Origin: Paenibacillus crassostreae
GTDB taxonomy: Bacteria; Bacillota; Bacilli; Paenibacillales; Paenibacillaceae
Assembly: GCF_001857945.1 (NCBI RefSeq)
Contig: NZ_CP017770.1
Location: forward strand, 1,054,001-1,118,000
Direction: 5' to 3'
Length of the DNA: 64,000 nucleotides
The number at the start of each line of letters is the position of its first letter. The stretch's first letter is position 1. The position numbers were made by a program, and so were the translations under genes. Under the pieces are notes generated by a model. That model was given only the letters and a program-made list of their open reading frames with translations. It searched no databases and was not told where the DNA came from. This document shows positions 11,970 to 40,532 of the stretch, in pieces.

Positions 11970-12920
11970 CTATTTCTTTAATTTAGGATCTAGTGCGTCA
12001 CGTAGACCGTCACCGAAAATATTAAAACAAAGCATAATTAAACTTATTAGAATGGCAGGGAATAACATCCGCCATGGATAATACATCCAACCTGTGAGTG
12101 CATCATTAATCATGGATCCTAATGATGACACTGGTGCTTGAACACCAAGACCCAAGAAACTCAAGAAAGCTTCTGAGAATATAGCACTTGGGACAGATAA
12201 TGTTAATGTGACAATGATAGGTCCAACCGCATTAGGAAGAAGATGACGGAAGATTAGACGGCCTGATCCTGCCCCCATGGAACGAGAGGCTAATACGAAC
12301 TCTCGATTCTTCAATTGAATAATTTCCCCGCGAACTATCCACGACATATTAATCCAACCCGTAATGGTCAAGGCAATGATAATCGTACCTAAACTTGGTT
12401 CTAGTACGACCAACAAGAGTATAGTTACCAGTAGGTAAGGAATCGAGTATAGAATTTCTGAGAATTTATTCATAATTTCATCAACACGTCCACCGAAGAA
12501 GCCCATAATCCCACCATAAATAACACCAAATATAAGGTCTATCATAGCAGCTGCTAAACCAACGATAAGCGAGATTCTTGCACCCATCCATGTCCGAACA
12601 AACATATCACGACCCAGTTCATCTGTACCGAACCAGTGAATAGAAGAAGGAGCTTGATTGGTATTTAACAGATCATTAGAATAATAGTTAAATTCAGAAA
12701 TAAATGGTCCAATAATAGATGCTAGAATAATTAAAATCAATATAATTAGGGAAGTGATAGCCAGCTTATTCTGACAAAGTCTTAGCCAGGCGTCTTTCCC
12801 TGCTGATAAACTTTCTCTCTGAATAACTTCAGACTGTTTCTCATCGGTACCTATCTTACGGAAGTCTTCAGGTGTTAGTGATACTTGATCTGAAGAAGTA
12901 TTAGTCTGATTAATAGCCAA
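11970..12920 (-). CDS. oppC: Oligopeptide ABC transporter permease OppC
   Basis: A 316-residue inner-membrane permease with a long cytoplasmic N terminus, the first membrane helix near 53-74, and the OppC N-terminal and BPD_transp_1 regions. The coupling loop EAA-like motif (about ASRSMGAGSGRLIFRHLLPN) contacts the ATPases. The start is TTG at 12920, seven bases or so after GGAGGG. It follows oppB by three bases and forms the heterodimeric channel with it. Confidence 0.92.
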   Translation of the reverse strand: MAINQTNTSSDQVSLTPEDFRKIGTDEKQSEVIQRESLSAGKDAWLRLCQNKLAITSLIILILIILASIIGPFISEFNYYSNDLLNTNQAPSSIHWFGTDELGRDMFVRTWMGARISLIVGLAAAMIDLIFGVIYGGIMGFFGGRVDEIMNKFSEILYSIPYLLVTILLLVVLEPSLGTIIIALTITGWINMSWIVRGEIIQLKNREFVLASRSMGAGSGRLIFRHLLPNAVGPIIVTLTLSVPSAIFSEAFLSFLGLGVQAPVSSLGSMINDALTGWMYYPWRMLFPAILISLIMLCFNIFGDGLRDALDPKLKK

Positions 12921-12923
12921 CCG

Positions 12924-13862
12924 TTAGCCCTCCTTTCTGCGGGTAAATGTAATACGTGGATCAATCAATACATAAGCTATATCTGTTATAAATCTAGCTA
13001 GCATCAGAATTACTCCATAGAAAATAGTGACACCCATAATCATTGTGTAGTCACGGTTAGTAATCGAATCGACGAATACCTTTCCGATTCCACCAATACC
13101 AAATATTTGCTCAATGACTACAGAACCCGTAATAATGTTAGCCGTCATAGGACCTACATAAGTCACAACAGGCAATATTCCGTTACGGATGACATGCTTG
13201 AACATAATCGTAAACCAGTTCAGACCTTTAGCTTTGGCCGTCTTAATGTAATCAGCATGCAACACTTCAAGCATACTCGAACGCGTAAGACGTGCTATAA
13301 ATGCTATAGGCTGTGCAGATAATGCCATAACCGGTAGAACATAGTCAATCGGTTTATCGAATCCTAGCACATTAAACCAACCGGCCTTTTCCGCCAAATA
13401 AAACTGTAATAAGGATGCGAGTACAAAGCTAGGTACAGCCATTCCTAATACAGCCAAAATCATGGCGACATTATCGATTAGCTTGCGATGATAAAGGGCT
13501 GCTAACATTCCCAGAAGAACCCCTACTATTACTGCTACGACAATGGCAACAGCTCCCAGTTTCAATGAAGTTTGGAAAGTGTCACTAATAATATCGGTAA
13601 CTTCTTGATTCAATTTCTTCATAGATATCCCGAAATCGCCAGTAGCAATATCACCTAGATACTTCAAATATTGTTGATAAACTGGCTTGTCCAGTCCATA
13701 TTGTTCCATTAGACGGGCTCTAATCTCTTCTGAAACTTTCTTTTCAGATTGAAAAGGGTCACCCGGAATGGCTTTCATGAGAAAGAATGTTGCAGATATT
13801 AGAATGAATAGCGATAGAATCATATAGAAAAATTTATTGGCAACATAACGCACCATTCCCAC
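12924..13862 (-). CDS. oppB: Oligopeptide ABC transporter permease OppB
   Basis: The second permease subunit, 312 residues, about six membrane helices with the first at roughly residues 9-30. The AKAKGLNWFTIMFKHVIRNG coupling loop lies in the second half. The start is GTG at 13862 with GGAGG five bases before it; an ATG two codons further in is the alternative. It is separated from oppA by a 189-base gap containing a terminator, so oppBCDF depends on read-through or on a promoter in that gap. Confidence 0.92.
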   Translation of the reverse strand: MGMVRYVANKFFYMILSLFILISATFFLMKAIPGDPFQSEKKVSEEIRARLMEQYGLDKPVYQQYLKYLGDIATGDFGISMKKLNQEVTDIISDTFQTSLKLGAVAIVVAVIVGVLLGMLAALYHRKLIDNVAMILAVLGMAVPSFVLASLLQFYLAEKAGWFNVLGFDKPIDYVLPVMALSAQPIAFIARLTRSSMLEVLHADYIKTAKAKGLNWFTIMFKHVIRNGILPVVTYVGPMTANIITGSVVIEQIFGIGGIGKVFVDSITNRDYTMIMGVTIFYGVILMLARFITDIAYVLIDPRITFTRRKEG

Positions 13863-34062: not shown

Positions 34063-35985
34063 ATGTCCCGACGAGCATGGACAATTGCAGGGATCGTTGT
34101 AATTGCAGGAATGGTAATCACACTTGTGAATGTACCTCGTTCAGATACAGAGTTAAGTTCGTTAAGTTCACGTTCAAATTCAACCGCAAATCAAGCTGCA
34201 AACCATTCAATAGCAAGTTCTCAACAAGAAAATACAATGAAACATCAGATGTTGAGTCATGACATTTCATCCACAGATACTTTAACGCGTATGGATGCGA
34301 AAGAGCATCTGACAACTATGGCAGGACAATTTAACAATACCAATCAGAAGCAAATAAATGCTTACATTCAAGAATTACAAAAAACTCATCCCCATATTCA
34401 AATGTTAACTTGGATTGATTTATCTAAACCGAATTCCACTCCCAACCGAGGAAAAAGTTTAACTTGGGACACAAACAAAAATAAACAATTTAATAACTAT
34501 TACGAGAAAGCAAAAAGCCATATACGTAATAACCGATCCTACGAGTCTCCGTCATTCCTAGTGAAAGATATCCAATATTTCATTATGGCTGAACCTTCCA
34601 CTAGCAAAAACAAAGGGATCATTGCGTTATTTAGTCAACAAGTTCTAAGCGAGGTTACCAATCATCAGAAACGTAACTTAAGATTAATACCCTATCCTAA
34701 AGAAGGGAACTATCGGATCGAATCTGTCGATACCAATACACTACGTGATATTACAGTTAAGACCGGCCATGATAATGAAAAAGCAAGTCATTATTATGAG
34801 AATGAGATCGTTGTTCATTTCCGAGAATCAATCTCAGATAAAGAACTAATGCAGATTTCCAAGGAGGTCCATTCGAAGTGGGTACGAAAAATGGGATATG
34901 CCTATGTTTTTCATGCTGATGATATGAATTATTCACAATTAAAAACGTACTTCACAAAAAAATACAAACCTAATTACGTTGAACCCCATTATCTTTATTT
35001 AACAAATGAAGTACGAGATAAGAACACTTCTAATTCACCAATTGTTCCTAATGATTTACTGTTCTCTACGTATCAATGGAATCTTCCTGCAATTGAAACC
35101 AGTAAAGGGTGGGATTTATCTAAAGGGAGTAATGATGTCATCATTGCCATTATTGACACTGGTGCCGACATTAACCACCCTGATTTGAAAGCAAATTTAG
35201 TCGATGGGTATAACGTTATTGATCCGTCCAAACAACCCATTGATGACGTAGGACATGGTACACATGTTGCTGGAATTATTGGCGCAGTAGTTAACAACAA
35301 AGAAGGCGTCGCCGGAATTAGCTGGTACAATAAAGTAATGCCTGTTAAAGCACTCGATAGCTCTGGTGCAGGTACAACATACGCTGTAGCAGAAGGAATC
35401 ATCTGGGCTGCTGATCATGGAGCCAAGGTTATGAACATGAGCTTAGGTAATTACGCTGACTCTACATTCCTCCATGATGCGATCAAATACGCCTATGACC
35501 GGGACGTTGTTATTATCGCTGCAACTGGGAATGACAATACGGAACGTCCTGGATACCCAGCTGCCTATCCTGAAGTGTTCGCTGTTTCAGCGACAGACTC
35601 CGATATGAATCTTGCTTCATTCTCTAATTATGGAGATTATGTTGATGTCGTAGCACCTGGAGCAAGTATTGCAAGCACCTATATGGGCAATCAATACGCT
35701 GCTCTATCTGGAACTTCCATGGCTAGCCCCCATGTTGCTGCATTAGCAGGGCTCATCCGATCTAGGAACCCTAATCTTAACAATGAAGAAGTCATGAAAT
35801 TGATGCGTGAAAATGTTGTAGATTTAGGCGATCAAGGAAAAGATATTTATTTTGGATATGGACAAATCGATATATATCAAGCATTAAATGCAGCAGGAAA
35901 TGGTTCATCTCCACTTCAGTTTTGGCCACAACATGTTCGTAATCAGATGCAGTCTGTGATTAAGAAACATCAATCCATTAAGTAA
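34063..35985 (+). CDS. Membrane-anchored subtilisin-like serine protease (peptidase S8)
   Basis: A 640-residue subtilase outside the membrane. One N-terminal hydrophobic segment (about 5-24) may be an uncleaved anchor. Residues about 75-200 form an unassigned region. Next comes a fervidolysin/I9-type propeptide (about 246-312: NEIVVHFRESISD...YVEPHYLY), then the S8 domain with Asp365 (IIDTGAD), His398 (GHGTHVAG), oxyanion Asn490 (ATGND) and Ser552 (SGTSMASPH). All catalytic residues are intact. GGAGGTG lies directly upstream of the ATG. Its transcript ends at a strong hairpin shared with rnpB. Substrate unknown. Confidence 0.93.
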   Translation: MSRRAWTIAGIVVIAGMVITLVNVPRSDTELSSLSSRSNSTANQAANHSIASSQQENTMKHQMLSHDISSTDTLTRMDAKEHLTTMAGQFNNTNQKQINAYIQELQKTHPHIQMLTWIDLSKPNSTPNRGKSLTWDTNKNKQFNNYYEKAKSHIRNNRSYESPSFLVKDIQYFIMAEPSTSKNKGIIALFSQQVLSEVTNHQKRNLRLIPYPKEGNYRIESVDTNTLRDITVKTGHDNEKASHYYENEIVVHFRESISDKELMQISKEVHSKWVRKMGYAYVFHADDMNYSQLKTYFTKKYKPNYVEPHYLYLTNEVRDKNTSNSPIVPNDLLFSTYQWNLPAIETSKGWDLSKGSNDVIIAIIDTGADINHPDLKANLVDGYNVIDPSKQPIDDVGHGTHVAGIIGAVVNNKEGVAGISWYNKVMPVKALDSSGAGTTYAVAEGIIWAADHGAKVMNMSLGNYADSTFLHDAIKYAYDRDVVIIAATGNDNTERPGYPAAYPEVFAVSATDSDMNLASFSNYGDYVDVVAPGASIASTYMGNQYAALSGTSMASPHVAALAGLIRSRNPNLNNEEVMKLMRENVVDLGDQGKDIYFGYGQIDIYQALNAAGNGSSPLQFWPQHVRNQMQSVIKKHQSIK

Positions 35986-35992
35986 AAATAAA

Positions 35993-36037
35993 AATGGTGT
36001 TATTCCTCAGTCATAAACTGATAGAATAACACCATTG
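35993..36037. terminator. Bidirectional terminator between the subtilase and rnpB
   Basis: AATGGTGTTATTC and GAATAACACCATT are perfectly complementary (13 pairs). On the minus strand the stem runs into TTTTATTTTTA, which fits termination of rnpB; on the plus strand it is followed by the weaker GAATTTAAAT. Confidence 0.88.
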
Positions 36038-36061
36038 AATTTAAATCATATAAGTTGTAGT

Positions 36062-36482
36062 TATGAAAGTTTGCCGTAAGCCGGGTCCTGTGTTCTTCGT
36101 GGTACATACGGGAACTACCCTCCCACTCTAAACGACAATCATCTATCTAGGCCGAACATTGCTGAGCGGCTCAAGCGACCAACCTAAACGCACCTCGGGC
36201 TAAGGTTGCTTATCTTTATAGAGAAGCTGCGTTCCATTAGGTCTTGCTCCAAGTGGGGTTTACCAGGAACGAAGTCACCAGCGTTCCTCGGGGTCTCTTA
36301 CACCTCGGTTCCATCCTTGCCTGTGCTGCTTACACAGCCATCGGCGGTCCATTTCTGTGGCACTATCCTTCAACTCGCGCTGACTGGACGTTATCCAGCA
36401 CCCTGCCCTATGGAGCCCGGACTTTCCTCTCGTGATGCCTTAAGCATCACCAGCGATTGTCTGTCAAACTTTCGGGACAACA
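36062..36482 (-). ncRNA. rnpB: RNase P RNA, class A (ancestral type)
   Basis: Catalytic RNA that matures tRNA 5' ends. On the minus strand the 5' side of P1 (GAAAGTTTG, 36473-36465) pairs exactly with CAAACTTTC at 36073-36065. P4 is marked by GAGGAAAGTCCGGGCTCC near the 5' end and AGATAGATGATTGTC near the 3' end, and CCCGGCTTACGG closes the molecule. GGGCAGGGTGCTGGATAACG, ACCGCCGATGGC, the P13/P14 arms after AAGGATGGAACCG, GGAGCAAGACC and GCTTGAGCC are class A features shared with E. coli and differ from the B. subtilis class B RNA. Ends are approximate; the 5' end follows from the promoter. Confidence 0.95.
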
Positions 36483-36488
36483 CTTGAT

Positions 36489-36517
36489 AGTATACAGCGA
36501 ATTAGCTGAGGTTACAA
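36489..36517 (-). promoter_or_regulatory. Sigma-A promoter of rnpB
   Basis: TTGTAA (36517-36512), 17-base spacer, TATACT (36494-36489), placing the RNA start near 36482. Confidence 0.8.
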
Positions 36518-36552
36518 CCCTAACTCATTTACAACTTTGGGAAATTTCAGTA

Positions 36553-37668
36553 TTACATAAATTGAAATGGCTCTGTATTCACTTCAGACACATGTACTTT
36601 CGTCTCTACTTTTGCCTTTTGTAGCTTATCCCTCATCCAATCTGCGACTTTAGCTTTCATTATTTTCTCCGCGTTATGCCCTGGATCAATAATTGCAATA
36701 CCAGCCATTAATGCATCCTGTGCTGTATGATAGTCAATATCTCCTGTAACGAGGACATCTGCACCACGATATATAGATGGTGATACATATCTACTTCCAG
36801 ATCCTCCAAGGACAGCCGCTTTACGAATCGTACGATTCAGATCACCTACTACTCTCACATGATCCACTTGAAGATTCTTCTTAACAACCTCTACGAACTC
36901 AGACAACAGCATAGGTTTGTTCAACTTACCTACACGACCAAGTCCTAGAGTTCTACCTTTTAGATTCATTGCATATAGGTCATAAGCAACTTCCTCATAC
37001 GGATGAGCTTTCAACATAACCTGTATGACTTTACTCCGGATTCCCTGAGGAACAATCGTCTCAATCCGTATTTCTTCCACTCGTTCAATTTCCCCTAGTT
37101 TGCCGATAAAGGGTTCCGTACCCTCTAACGGCATAAAGGTTCCATATCCTTCAATATTAAAGCTGCAATGACTGTAGTCTCCGATCATACCTGCCCCTGC
37201 ACCAAGAATAGCATCTAGAACTTGTTGATGATGAGTCTTAGGCACGAATACGACCAATTTAGATAACTCCTCGGTATGAAGATCTTCTAGAGGAGATCCA
37301 TTCTCAATACCCAGTGCTTCAGCCATCCAATCATTCATACCACCTTCTGTTACATCCAGATTGGTGTGGCTGATATAGACCGCTATGTCATGCTTGATTA
37401 ACTTCTCATATAATTTGCCCATAGGCGTATCTGTCTGTAATTGCTTCAAGGGTCTAAAAATAATGGCATGATGCGCAATGATCAGATCGACTTGGAGCTT
37501 AATCGCTTCCTCAATCACATCATCATTTATATCTAATGCAATGAGAACATTGTGAATTTCCTTCTGCAACGTTCCCAGCTGGAGTCCAATTTTGTCATCA
37601 GGCATAGCTACATGCTTGGGGGCTAATTGTTCCATGTATTGTATTACAGTTTGTCCTTTTGCAAACAT
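36553..37668 (-). CDS. Nif3-like dinuclear metal centre protein (YqfO)
   Basis: A 371-residue member of the NIF3/YqfO family, toroid-forming proteins with two metal ions of uncertain enzymatic role (GTP cyclohydrolase 1 type 2-like). The N-terminal metal site shows as LIIAHHAIIFRPLK and YISHTNLDVTEGGMND; a PII-like inserted domain lies in the middle (about 130-230), characteristic of the longer Gram-positive form; the C-terminal metal residues are in VTGDIDYHTAQDA and DPGHNAEK. It begins 25 bases inside the end of trmK, so the pair is translationally coupled, as in B. subtilis yqfN-yqfO. Confidence 0.92.
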   Translation of the reverse strand: MFAKGQTVIQYMEQLAPKHVAMPDDKIGLQLGTLQKEIHNVLIALDINDDVIEEAIKLQVDLIIAHHAIIFRPLKQLQTDTPMGKLYEKLIKHDIAVYISHTNLDVTEGGMNDWMAEALGIENGSPLEDLHTEELSKLVVFVPKTHHQQVLDAILGAGAGMIGDYSHCSFNIEGYGTFMPLEGTEPFIGKLGEIERVEEIRIETIVPQGIRSKVIQVMLKAHPYEEVAYDLYAMNLKGRTLGLGRVGKLNKPMLLSEFVEVVKKNLQVDHVRVVGDLNRTIRKAAVLGGSGSRYVSPSIYRGADVLVTGDIDYHTAQDALMAGIAIIDPGHNAEKIMKAKVADWMRDKLQKAKVETKVHVSEVNTEPFQFM

Positions 37669-38417
37669 GAGAGTACCTCCTTAATCTGCCGAATTTCTTG
37701 TGTAATAACTTCAGATTTCACCTCAGCCGAGGGTAAGGATGAAGTTGCTAAAGATTTCAATACTCGATCCAATTTATCAAGCTCTGACATCCATTTTGCT
37801 ATAAAGATTGGATTATTTCCCTTTAACAACCATGGTCCCAATCGGATCATCATATCTTGATCAACCTTCACTGACCCCTTACTATTGTTCAAGAAATACT
37901 CTTTATATACGTCATCATTAGAGAGTAGCGTTTCTCCATTATTCTTGGGGACAGCCGTTAATATTTCATAGACTTTACGATCCTCTTCCATAATGTGCTC
38001 CGAAATTAATATCCAACGGTTATCTAATAACCAACGTCGAACTAGATCTTCCCCTACATTGGGTTGTAACACTAGCATCTTAACCCCTTGAAGCTTAGAT
38101 ATCCCTTGTTCCAATATACTGGAGATCAGTCCACCACCCATCCCGGCAATTGTGATTACATCCACTTCACCGGGTTCTATAACATTGAGCCCATCACCAA
38201 GTCTTACAGAAATCTTATCGATTAGTCCAGCTGACGCCACTTGTTTAGCAGCTGCATCCCGTGGCCCAGGATTAACTTCTCCAGCTATTGCACTTAACAC
38301 CTTTCCCTTTTGAACTGCTGCTACCGGCAACATAGCGTGATCCGACCCTATATCTGCCATCGTACTTCCATCTGGAATTTGCTCCATAATATACTGCAAT
38401 CTTTTTGATAATTTCAT
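37644..38417 (-). CDS. trmK: tRNA (adenine(22)-N1)-methyltransferase TrmK
   Basis: SAM-dependent methylation of A22 in the tRNA D loop. The SAM-binding start is MADIGSDHAMLPVAAVQ (about 21-37), then VITIAGMGGGLI and LVLQPN. The C-terminal coiled-coil region typical of TrmK follows (about 195-257). I place the start at the ATG at 38417, which overlaps the upstream stop codon as ATGA; an ATG at 38438 has no ribosome site. It follows a membrane protein gene and precedes nif3 in the order trmK-nif3 known from bacilli. Confidence 0.92.
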   Translation of the reverse strand: MKLSKRLQYIMEQIPDGSTMADIGSDHAMLPVAAVQKGKVLSAIAGEVNPGPRDAAAKQVASAGLIDKISVRLGDGLNVIEPGEVDVITIAGMGGGLISSILEQGISKLQGVKMLVLQPNVGEDLVRRWLLDNRWILISEHIMEEDRKVYEILTAVPKNNGETLLSNDDVYKEYFLNNSKGSVKVDQDMMIRLGPWLLKGNNPIFIAKWMSELDKLDRVLKSLATSSLPSAEVKSEVITQEIRQIKEVLSCLQKDKL

Positions 38418-39235
38418 GACGACACCCACACAATCCATTTTTTTCTAAATATAAACAACAGGAACAAAGCGACAGCGAGTTTAAATACACAAAGTAATAC
38501 TATATCAGATGGCATTTGATGCCTCAGTAGAATAAGGTCAATTTCAGGCATAAACCAAATACTCAATCCTACACTGAAATATACTTGTGATAACATCTTC
38601 TTATATTTATGTAACAACCCGCTTAACCCTATGAACAGTAAGACAAGTGGAATCCATAATGCTTGCAACTCCCCCCATGAAATAGCTGGAAGCTGCCGAA
38701 CGAAGACCACGGCATACAGTAGAAGCCATCCACCTATACCACAATAATGTAGTATCCCTATTCTTAAAATATACCCTATTAAGAGCCATATCAACCCACA
38801 AGAAGTAACCAACACCATTGACCATAATTCCTCATACATAGAGTGAAGAGCTATTATCCATACGCCAAGAACAAGCATCAACAGACTTCCAGCTCCAGCT
38901 AGTATCAGACTGATCATTCGAGATCTATTGTTATATATACCTGCGAATAAGTAACAAACTACGACCATAATCACCAAGGTTGCTATTTGCAATGATAAGG
39001 AAAAAGAGCTAAAATAAAAACCAATAAAACAAATGAAGGAAATAATTCCAAAAGCAAGAAACCAAGGTTTGCTATTTCCATTTCGCAATGTTGCCAACGT
39101 TAATGAGTGTGATTTCATATTCTTTGGTTCTTGATATAAATTACTAAGAAAGTCACAATATTGGTCTGGTAAAAGTCGACTTTGACGCCAATGCTCGATC
39201 TCATCTATTATGATCTTTTTTCTTTCTTGCTTCAT
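38414..39235 (-). CDS. DUF2157-like multi-pass membrane protein
   Basis: A 273-residue protein. The soluble N terminus (KKIIIDEIEHWRQSRLLPDQYCDFLSNLY) resembles the start of DUF2157 proteins, and seven or eight membrane helices follow. Function unknown. The ATG at 39235 has GGGG seven bases upstream; the frame also opens at 39286. Its stop overlaps the trmK start by ATGA, so it is translated with trmK and nif3, which is unusual for this operon. The sigA terminator lies 100-150 bases upstream. Confidence 0.65.
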   Translation of the reverse strand: MKQERKKIIIDEIEHWRQSRLLPDQYCDFLSNLYQEPKNMKSHSLTLATLRNGNSKPWFLAFGIISFICFIGFYFSSFSLSLQIATLVIMVVVCYLFAGIYNNRSRMISLILAGAGSLLMLVLGVWIIALHSMYEELWSMVLVTSCGLIWLLIGYILRIGILHYCGIGGWLLLYAVVFVRQLPAISWGELQALWIPLVLLFIGLSGLLHKYKKMLSQVYFSVGLSIWFMPEIDLILLRHQMPSDIVLLCVFKLAVALFLLFIFRKKWIVWVSS

Positions 39236-39342
39236 AGACTTGCCCCGTTTCTGACCAGTAAATACATGAAACACTATTACTTCCAACGAAGTATAGGAAT
39301 AGCTTTAGAATGTTTCCACATGGTGTTAGACAAGGATCTCGT

Positions 39343-39395: not shown

Positions 39396-40532
39396 TTATT
39401 CCAGAAAGTCCTTCAGCCTTTTACTACGACTTGGATGGCGTAATTTACGAAGTGCCTTGGCTTCGATCTGACGAATCCGTTCACGAGTTACACCGAAAAC
39501 TTTACCAACTTCTTCGAGTGTTCTTGTTCTACCATCGTCCAGGCCGAAACGCAACCGTAGGACATTCTCTTCCCGCTCTGTTAGAGTGTCTAGCACATCT
39601 TCTAATTGCTCTTTGAGAAGTTCATACGCAGCAGCATCGGCAGGCGCCAAAGCTTCCTGATCCTCTATGAAATCTCCAAGGTGAGAATCGTCTTCTTCAC
39701 CAATCGGTGTTTCAAGGGAAACCGGCTCTTGAGCAATCTTCATAATCTCACGAACCTTCTCAACACTTAATTCCATTTCAGCTGCAATTTCTTCTGGAGC
39801 TGGTTCACGTCCTAATTCTTGCAACAGTTGACGAGATACACGAATCAGTTTGTTAATGGTTTCCACCATATGAACTGGAATACGAATCGTCCGCGCTTGG
39901 TCAGCAATCGCGCGTGTAATAGCCTGGCGTATCCACCAAGTAGCATAAGTACTAAATTTAAAACCCTTTCCGTGATCGAACTTCTCTACGGCTTTGATAA
40001 GTCCCATGTTTCCTTCTTGAATCAAATCAAGAAAGAGCATCCCCCGTCCAACATACCGCTTCGCTATACTGACTACAAGCCGCAGGTTAGCTTCTGCTAG
40101 ACGTCTCTTAGCTTCTTCATCACCGTTCTCAATACGTTTAGCTAATTGGACTTCATCTTCAGCTGACAATAACTGAACACGTCCAATTTCCTTTAAGTAC
40201 ATGCGAACTGGATCATTGATCTTAATCCCCGGAGGTAACGATAGATCATCTACAAAGTGAATTTCTTCCCCATGTTGTTCTTCAGAGTCATCATTAGGAC
40301 GTAAACTATTTGATTCCTCTTCATCATTCTCATTAACCACTTCAATCTCTAGATCACTCAAATGTTCATAGAATTCTTCCATTTGCTCCGGATCTTGGTC
40401 AAAGGGTGATAATTTCTCCATAATCTCTTTCATATTCAACGTCGATCTTTTTTTACCTTGTTCAACCAATTGATCTTTTACTTGATCAAGTGTCAATTCT
40501 GTCTCTATTTCAGTACGTTGATCATTCGCCAT
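39396..40532 (-). CDS. sigA: RNA polymerase primary sigma factor SigA (RpoD)
   Basis: The housekeeping sigma factor (378 residues). A short acidic region 1.1 is followed by region 1.2 ([17 protein letters not shown]), region 2 with the core- and -10-binding block [21 protein letters not shown], region 3, and region 4 with the -35-binding helix-turn-helix [26 protein letters not shown]. It matches the many TTGACA/TATAAT promoters seen in this window. The ATG follows GGAGGGAG. dnaG-sigA order is the classic Gram-positive macromolecular synthesis operon. Confidence 0.97.

Follow-up and report, generated by a model that had tools for sequence, protein, structure and literature searches.

A class A RNase P RNA gene at a shared chromosomal address in Paenibacillus, and class A and class B genes together in Tumebacillus genomes

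Introduction

The M1 RNA of Escherichia coli is the type of the class A RNase P RNAs. Together with the RnpA protein, an RNA of this class would cut the 5′ leaders off pre-tRNAs. Class A is defined by helices P6, P16 and P17 in PMC7191817, and in PMC2858038 and PMC4919922 type A is held to be ancestral, with the A and B types interchangeable in catalysis.

Here we describe the analysis of a 64-kb stretch of the Paenibacillus crassostreae genome (the window), in which a sequence-only reading had placed a class A RNase P RNA. That reading took class B to be the hallmark of low-GC Gram-positive bacteria, and regarded the RNA as either the retained ancestral form or a replacement.

Results

Identity and Structure of the RNA

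Positions 35500-37000 of the window were searched with cmscan, and it was found that the single match was to the class A model RF00010, at 36062-36472 on the minus strand (260.1 bits relative to a gathering cut-off of 100 bits, E 2.7e-85), extending over the full length of the model (1-367 of 367) and not truncated. This complete, 411-nt rnpB is the sole Rfam match at gathering threshold across the window. In the whole genome (4.76 Mb, four contigs), the same gene was the sole RF00010 match, and the class B model RF00011 gave one sub-threshold match of 36.2 bits, relative to a gathering cut-off of 97 bits, that coincided with the class A rnpB; a second rnpB was not found in the genome by either search. 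The genome contains one RnpA gene, with a Pfam PF00825 match. Judged by its sequence, the window gene is the RNA subunit of an RNase P of ordinary class A, and it is presumably catalytic. An Infernal comparison of RF00010 with RF00011 had been proposed as a check on the assignment to class A and not class B, and the RF00010 score was clearly the higher. The RNA had been said to occupy 36062-36482, with no strand given; the first position agrees with the model match, whereas at the other end the match stops at 36472, and the four sequence motifs that had been quoted were found on the minus strand.

The class A helices P1 to P19 were mapped on the RNA, with P6 as a pseudoknot (36197-36408, minus strand) in which GGGC (36408-36405) pairs with GCCC in loop L17 (36200-36197). 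The same pair mapping placed the P13 and P14 hairpins of the specificity domain at 36266-36307 and helices P16 and P17 at 36186-36234, all on the minus strand; P16 and P17 are class A elements missing from class B in PMC2858038 (Table 3). Five helices, P6, P13, P14, P16 and P17, could all be drawn on the window RNA, including the P13/P14 arms of the sequence-only reading. On our reading of the RF00010 alignment P5.1, P10.1 and P15.1 are absent: P5 and P7 are separated by 8 nt, the P10/P11 step comprises 3 nt, and P15 encloses P16/P17. None of the signs named beforehand as speaking against class A (a higher RF00011 score, the presence of P10.1 or P15.1, or the absence of P6, P13 and P14) was seen, nor was the class C combination of a P10.1 helix with the loss of P13 and P14.

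Covariation was evaluated in 28 aligned class A RNAs representing 17 families, with the structure drawn on the first sequence. In the class A fold 91.0% of cells paired, compared to 79.1% when shuffled, and double changes were present in 55 of 98 pairs, compared to 36.6 when shuffled, with none of 500 shuffles as high, in a comparison in which related sequences can exceed shuffles. Slid versions of the fold were 33-45% paired, a control that leans toward the drawn fold because the structure was drawn on the first sequence. Covariation supports the class A fold as a whole. Among individual helices in the 28 RNAs, P6 was paired in 99.1% of cells and had two pairs with double changes, P13 was paired in 96.4% (with one A-C mismatch in the window RNA) and P17 in 95.6-100%; the weak helices were P1 (63.4%), P14 (60.1%) and P16 (70.7%). 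The low value for P14 probably reflects a shift of the stem register in other families, as read from the alignment.

Flanking Elements and Neighboring Genes

A pattern scan gave a promoter-like site (TTGTAA, 17 nt, TATACT) at 36489-36517 on the minus strand, ending 16 nt before the RNA start; shuffles of the stretch contained 1.1 such sites on average, so that its frequency is that of chance, and it is the position alone that is suggestive. On the 3′ side, a hairpin followed by a T-rich tail (35993-36036, minus strand; predicted fold -23.7 kcal/mol, z -6.9) is a likely terminator that lies in the 76-nt gap between rnpB and a convergent subtilase (S8) gene (34063-35985, plus strand; Pfam PF00082, 204.9 bits). 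The same pattern scan listed no terminator.

Upstream of rnpB, and also on the minus strand, are genes for a DUF34/Nif3 family protein (36553-37668; Pfam PF01784, 271.7 bits), for TrmK, the tRNA (adenine22-N1)-methyltransferase (37644-38438; Pfam PF04816, 207.3 bits), both of these also identified by synteny, and, farther away, for the primary sigma factor (39396-40532; Pfam sigma-70 regions 1.1 to 4). Between trmK and the sigma factor gene is a 290-aa frame (38417-39286, minus strand) that had no Pfam match; related frames (cluster 27) are present at three other loci of the host's own family and at one locus of the Tumebacillus family described below. The eight Paenibacillus records compared cover differing stretches; P. 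macquariensis, P. antarcticus and P. glacialis gave matches of 80-85% to the window, 1.0-2.4 kb long, and two further records gave matches of 87-88% that were confined to 450 nt around rnpB.

Distribution of Class A and Class B Genes

In a sample of the order (119 genomes, 11 families and 34 genera), all 119 genomes passed the class A cut-off and none passed the class B cut-off, which agrees with the earlier guess that class A may be general for the group; the window rnpB is ordinary for its order. In a sample of the class (249 genomes), 87 genomes were above the class A cut-off and 165 above the class B cut-off, in large-sample searches that used stricter filters and can miss matches. Six genomes, all of one family (f35), were above both, and by arithmetic three were above neither. 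The host's own family (f1) was represented by 22 genomes, all class A. Codes beginning with f and G are family and genome labels, and names such as "Bacillus-like" are guesses. The premise that class B is the hallmark of low-GC Gram-positives is too strong, given the 87 of 249 genomes above the class A cut-off.

Chromosomal Location of the Two Classes

The surroundings of 37 class A loci (17 families) were compared with those of 46 class B loci (27 families) by clustering open frames of at least 90 residues and identifying them with Pfam. A trmK or DUF34/Nif3 gene was upstream on the same strand at 33 of the 37 class A loci (15 of 17 families, f35 included) and at none of the 46 class B loci, a set that includes loci with little upstream sequence. 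The remaining four class A loci belong to f22, where Nif3 is on another contig, to f23, where Nif3 is about 6 kb upstream of rnpB, and to f18 and f5 (one locus each), where neither gene was found in the compared stretch.

In 16 of 27 families, the class B gene had a DivIVA-domain GpsB-like gene on one side and an RlmL-like gene on the other; in f15, the neighbor was the RlmL-like gene alone. A tRNA gene was within 200 nt of rnpB at 13 of the 46 class B loci (four in f35, two each in f17, f10 and f26, and one each in f34, f2 and f19) and at none of the 35 class A loci scanned (all except L012 and L023). In one f34 genome (G092, L153:3376-5127), the class B rnpB is inside a dense tRNA array, between tRNA-Gly and tRNA-Thr. 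Three genomes of f26 and f10 (G146, G135 and G189; L059-L062 and L066-L067) have two class B rnpB genes each over the cut-off, some of them by tRNA genes, and a second class B rnpB of f26 (L060:4331-5499) stands in a row with 6S RNA, SRP RNA and tRNA genes on one strand.

An AsnB-like gene was found downstream, on the opposite strand, at three f21 class B loci (about 1.2-3.5 kb away) and at four f35 class A loci (about 3.8-4.5 kb away), and the AsnB-like genes of f21 (L156, L157 and L065) and f35 (L055-L058) are 60-66% identical. Because this flank is shared with f35 class A, the class B gene of f21 may occupy a portion of the old class A neighborhood, and the statement that class B is always at an unrelated address has to be qualified for f21. 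In one f21 genome (G193), the class B rnpB is on the same strand as Nif3, at a distance of about 90 kb.

Class A and Class B Genes in Tumebacillus

Family f35 consists of seven genomes, namely T. avium (G179, NZ_CP021434.1), T. lacus (G125), T. permanentifrigoris (G114) and four others (G103, G136, G147 and G158) that have the same two genus codes as the three named Tumebacillus. Six of the seven (all except G136; loci L048-L058, L012 and L023) were above both cut-offs. The class A copies keep the Nif3 neighbor in all six, and the class B copies are elsewhere. Contamination is argued against because the two-class genomes G147 and G179 are single-contig. The class B gene adjoins tRNA genes in G125, G114, G136 and G103, is 238 nt from a 16S rRNA gene in G147, and in G158 is on a 3.6-kb contig with a tRNA and a 16S gene about 2.7 kb away; neither kind of gene was found in the readable part next to the class B gene of G179. 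The latter gene (350 nt) was considered as broken and 3′-truncated, a reading that was rejected, as the sequence runs into an N stretch, which is a gap. In T. lacus rnpB is 13 nt from tRNA-Gly and 35 nt from tRNA-Thr, and the order tRNA-Gly, rnpB, tRNA-Thr is common to T. lacus and f34. One RnpA match was present in six of the seven genomes, and none was found in T. lacus. Six class B RNAs of f35 were folded together with RNAalifold, and 24 of the 110 pairs in the resulting structure had compensatory changes.

The seventh genome, G136 (a 110-contig draft), was above the class B cut-off only, and no RF00010 match was found genome-wide. Its Nif3 site is unbroken (L215, C8:75258-76370 plus 1.5 kb downstream), and no class A match was found there at E up to 5; in the same scan the Nif3 site of G147 gave a class A match of 306.5 bits. 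In 14 other class B-only genomes no class A match was found within 1.5 kb of Nif3, in a scan that left out four of 20 Nif3 loci (G022 and G023, which are class A, G080 and G248).

Class B sequences of T. lacus (L050) and f26 (L060) were compared with plasmid and phage collections, and each matched 4 or 5 records at 60-90% identity. The phage-collection matches were records that have no annotation and bear the names of Listeria, Enterococcus and Staphylococcus phages, and the plasmid-collection matches were from Geobacillus (21.7 kb), Listeria, Limosilactobacillus and, for L060 only, Mycoplasmopsis. The plasmid-collection records other than Geobacillus are 0.76-2.9 Mb long and were taken, because of their size, as chromosomal sequence. 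Carriage of class B by a plasmid or phage was set aside, as these comparisons showed no vehicle. In the 21.7-kb Geobacillus stearothermophilus plasmid record, positions 12919-13276 (CP008935.1) have no annotated feature and align with 89% of the T. lacus class B rnpB at 72% identity.

Trees of Hosts and RNAs

A protein tree of 59 genomes was calculated with 11 proteins around rnpA (quick LG+G4, one chromosomal region). The tree is unrooted, with no outgroup, and therefore gives no direction of change. It needed 7 changes of RNA class, and, with two long rows removed, 5 or 7 changes according to whether genomes with both classes were counted as B or as A. For this reduced set, a single clade of all genomes with class B, alone or together with class A, was rejected (AU p 1.3e-6), and a single clade of the Bacillus-like genomes and the class B genomes of f21, f19, f26 and f10 was not (AU p 0.16). 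There was more than one class switch, and because the smaller grouping was not rejected, the number of switches is fixed no further.

In the tree of class A RNAs, six Paenibacillaceae RNAs formed one clade (100/99) and f35 grouped with f6 (93/94); in the protein tree, f35 and f6 were within one clade of 13 genomes with a support of 100. Holding the class A RNAs of f35, f6, f20 and f47 together was not rejected (p 0.15), and f14, a long branch, falls among them. Families f1 and f11 group in the protein tree (98), and in the RNA tree f11, also a long branch, is placed with f18/f31. In the tree of class B RNAs, 17 Bacillus/Lactobacillus-like RNAs formed one clade (100/99), and the RNAs of f12, f27, f34, f35 and f17 grouped at 98/99, together with a second copy from the f21 genome G172 (a long branch). 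This second class B rnpB (L064:4845-5235) is divergent, and its place in the tree is with f35-like RNAs rather than with the copies of its host family.

Discussion

We consider it very probable that, taken as a whole, the pattern is explained by vertical inheritance of class A at its old address in the Paenibacillales and, elsewhere in the class, by the presence of class B beside class A, followed by the loss of A. Retention is the plain reading because the RNA class and the neighbors are the same and the order is uniform, and of the two possibilities that the sequence-only reading had left side by side, it is favored by the location of trmK/Nif3 upstream of class A rnpB in 15 of the 17 families. 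The address at which the Paenibacillales would have inherited class A is the one downstream of trmK and DUF34/Nif3. In other parts of the class, a class B gene would have existed at, or come to, a different address, with tRNA/rRNA genes as neighbors in several families and gpsB- and rlmL-like genes on either side in 16 of 27, and would have coexisted with class A until class A was lost. An intermediate with two genes would be viable because A and B can replace each other in catalysis, according to PMC2858038, where Wegscheid 2006 is cited, and PMC4919922. Because the class A and class B neighbors differ in most families, the switch would be mainly a swap between two genes and not an in-place reshaping, with f21 as a possible exception. 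Class B may have spread by transfer, or the two classes may have coexisted since ancient times with differential loss, and the tRNA-array setting of class B in distant families fits either.

The f35 genomes with two genes look like living intermediates of a switch from A to B. We suggest tentatively, with slightly less than even confidence, that Tumebacillus runs two RNase P ribozymes, with class A at the trmK-Nif3 site and class B transcribed in a tRNA/rRNA operon, that would share one RnpA, and that these are surviving A-to-B intermediates, of which one relative finished the switch by losing class A. As part of the same suggestion, class B would have entered, or been born in, tRNA arrays, where its ends would be made by tRNA processing, and would later have moved to the gpsB-rlmL site in Bacillus-like lineages. 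No report of class A and class B in one genome was found among titles and opening lines of abstracts in the open-licence PMC literature, in which most subscription papers are not covered, and no paper there was found to treat Tumebacillus and RNase P together. Genomes with two genes and a relative in which one has been lost open the replacement of an essential ribozyme to direct experiment.

For the wider pattern, class B could have arisen several times by convergence rather than once with transfer or differential loss. The protein tree does not unite the class B genomes in one clade, their rnpB genes are at several kinds of address, and the AsnB-like neighbor that f21 has in common with f35 class A leaves an in-place change possible. 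We nevertheless think convergence unlikely, as 165 of 249 genomes are above the cut-off of one RF00011 model, the 46 class B RNAs align together, those of f12, f27, f34, f35 and f17 group at 98/99 with the long-branched second copy of f21, and f34 and T. lacus have the tRNA-Gly, rnpB, tRNA-Thr order in common.

It is very unlikely that class A in the window is a replacement, reacquired through transfer from an outside source by an ancestor of the Paenibacillales that carried class B. Such a history would be compatible with the interleaving of class A and class B families on the unrooted protein tree (5 or 7 changes), by which direction is not fixed, but the transfer would need to have hit the same site downstream of trmK/Nif3 that class A occupies in 15 of 17 families, and no genome of the 119 in the order passed the class B cut-off. 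A class C-like RNA or A/B hybrid intermediate, for which the weak full-length RF00011 match of 36.2 bits could be cited, is scarcely credible and was discarded: this score is far below the cut-off, sub-threshold RF00011 matches were also obtained in control genomes such as Caulobacter and Synechococcus, the RF00010 alignment leaves no room for P10.1 or P5.1, and P13 and P14, lost in types B and C according to PMC2858038, are present.

Class B does not mark every low-GC Gram-positive, as the window gene shows. With vertical retention of class A in the Paenibacillales, the ancestral ribozyme would have been kept throughout an order of Bacilli, as far as it was sampled.

Relative to the known classes, the window RNA resembles class C of the Chloroflexi in having P6, P16 and P17, but class C has P10.1 and lacks P13/P14 according to PMC2858038, whereas the window RNA has P13 and P14. 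With class B, as in Bacillus subtilis, it shares a common core that gives the weak RF00011 match, but it scores 36.2 bits (below 97), has no room for P5.1 or P10.1, and has other chromosomal neighbors. With class A (RF00010), it gives a full-length match that includes P6, P13, P14, P16 and P17; it differs from the model in having 17 nt inserted at P16/P17 and 26 nt at P19, and from the class A type in that its host is a member of the Bacilli.
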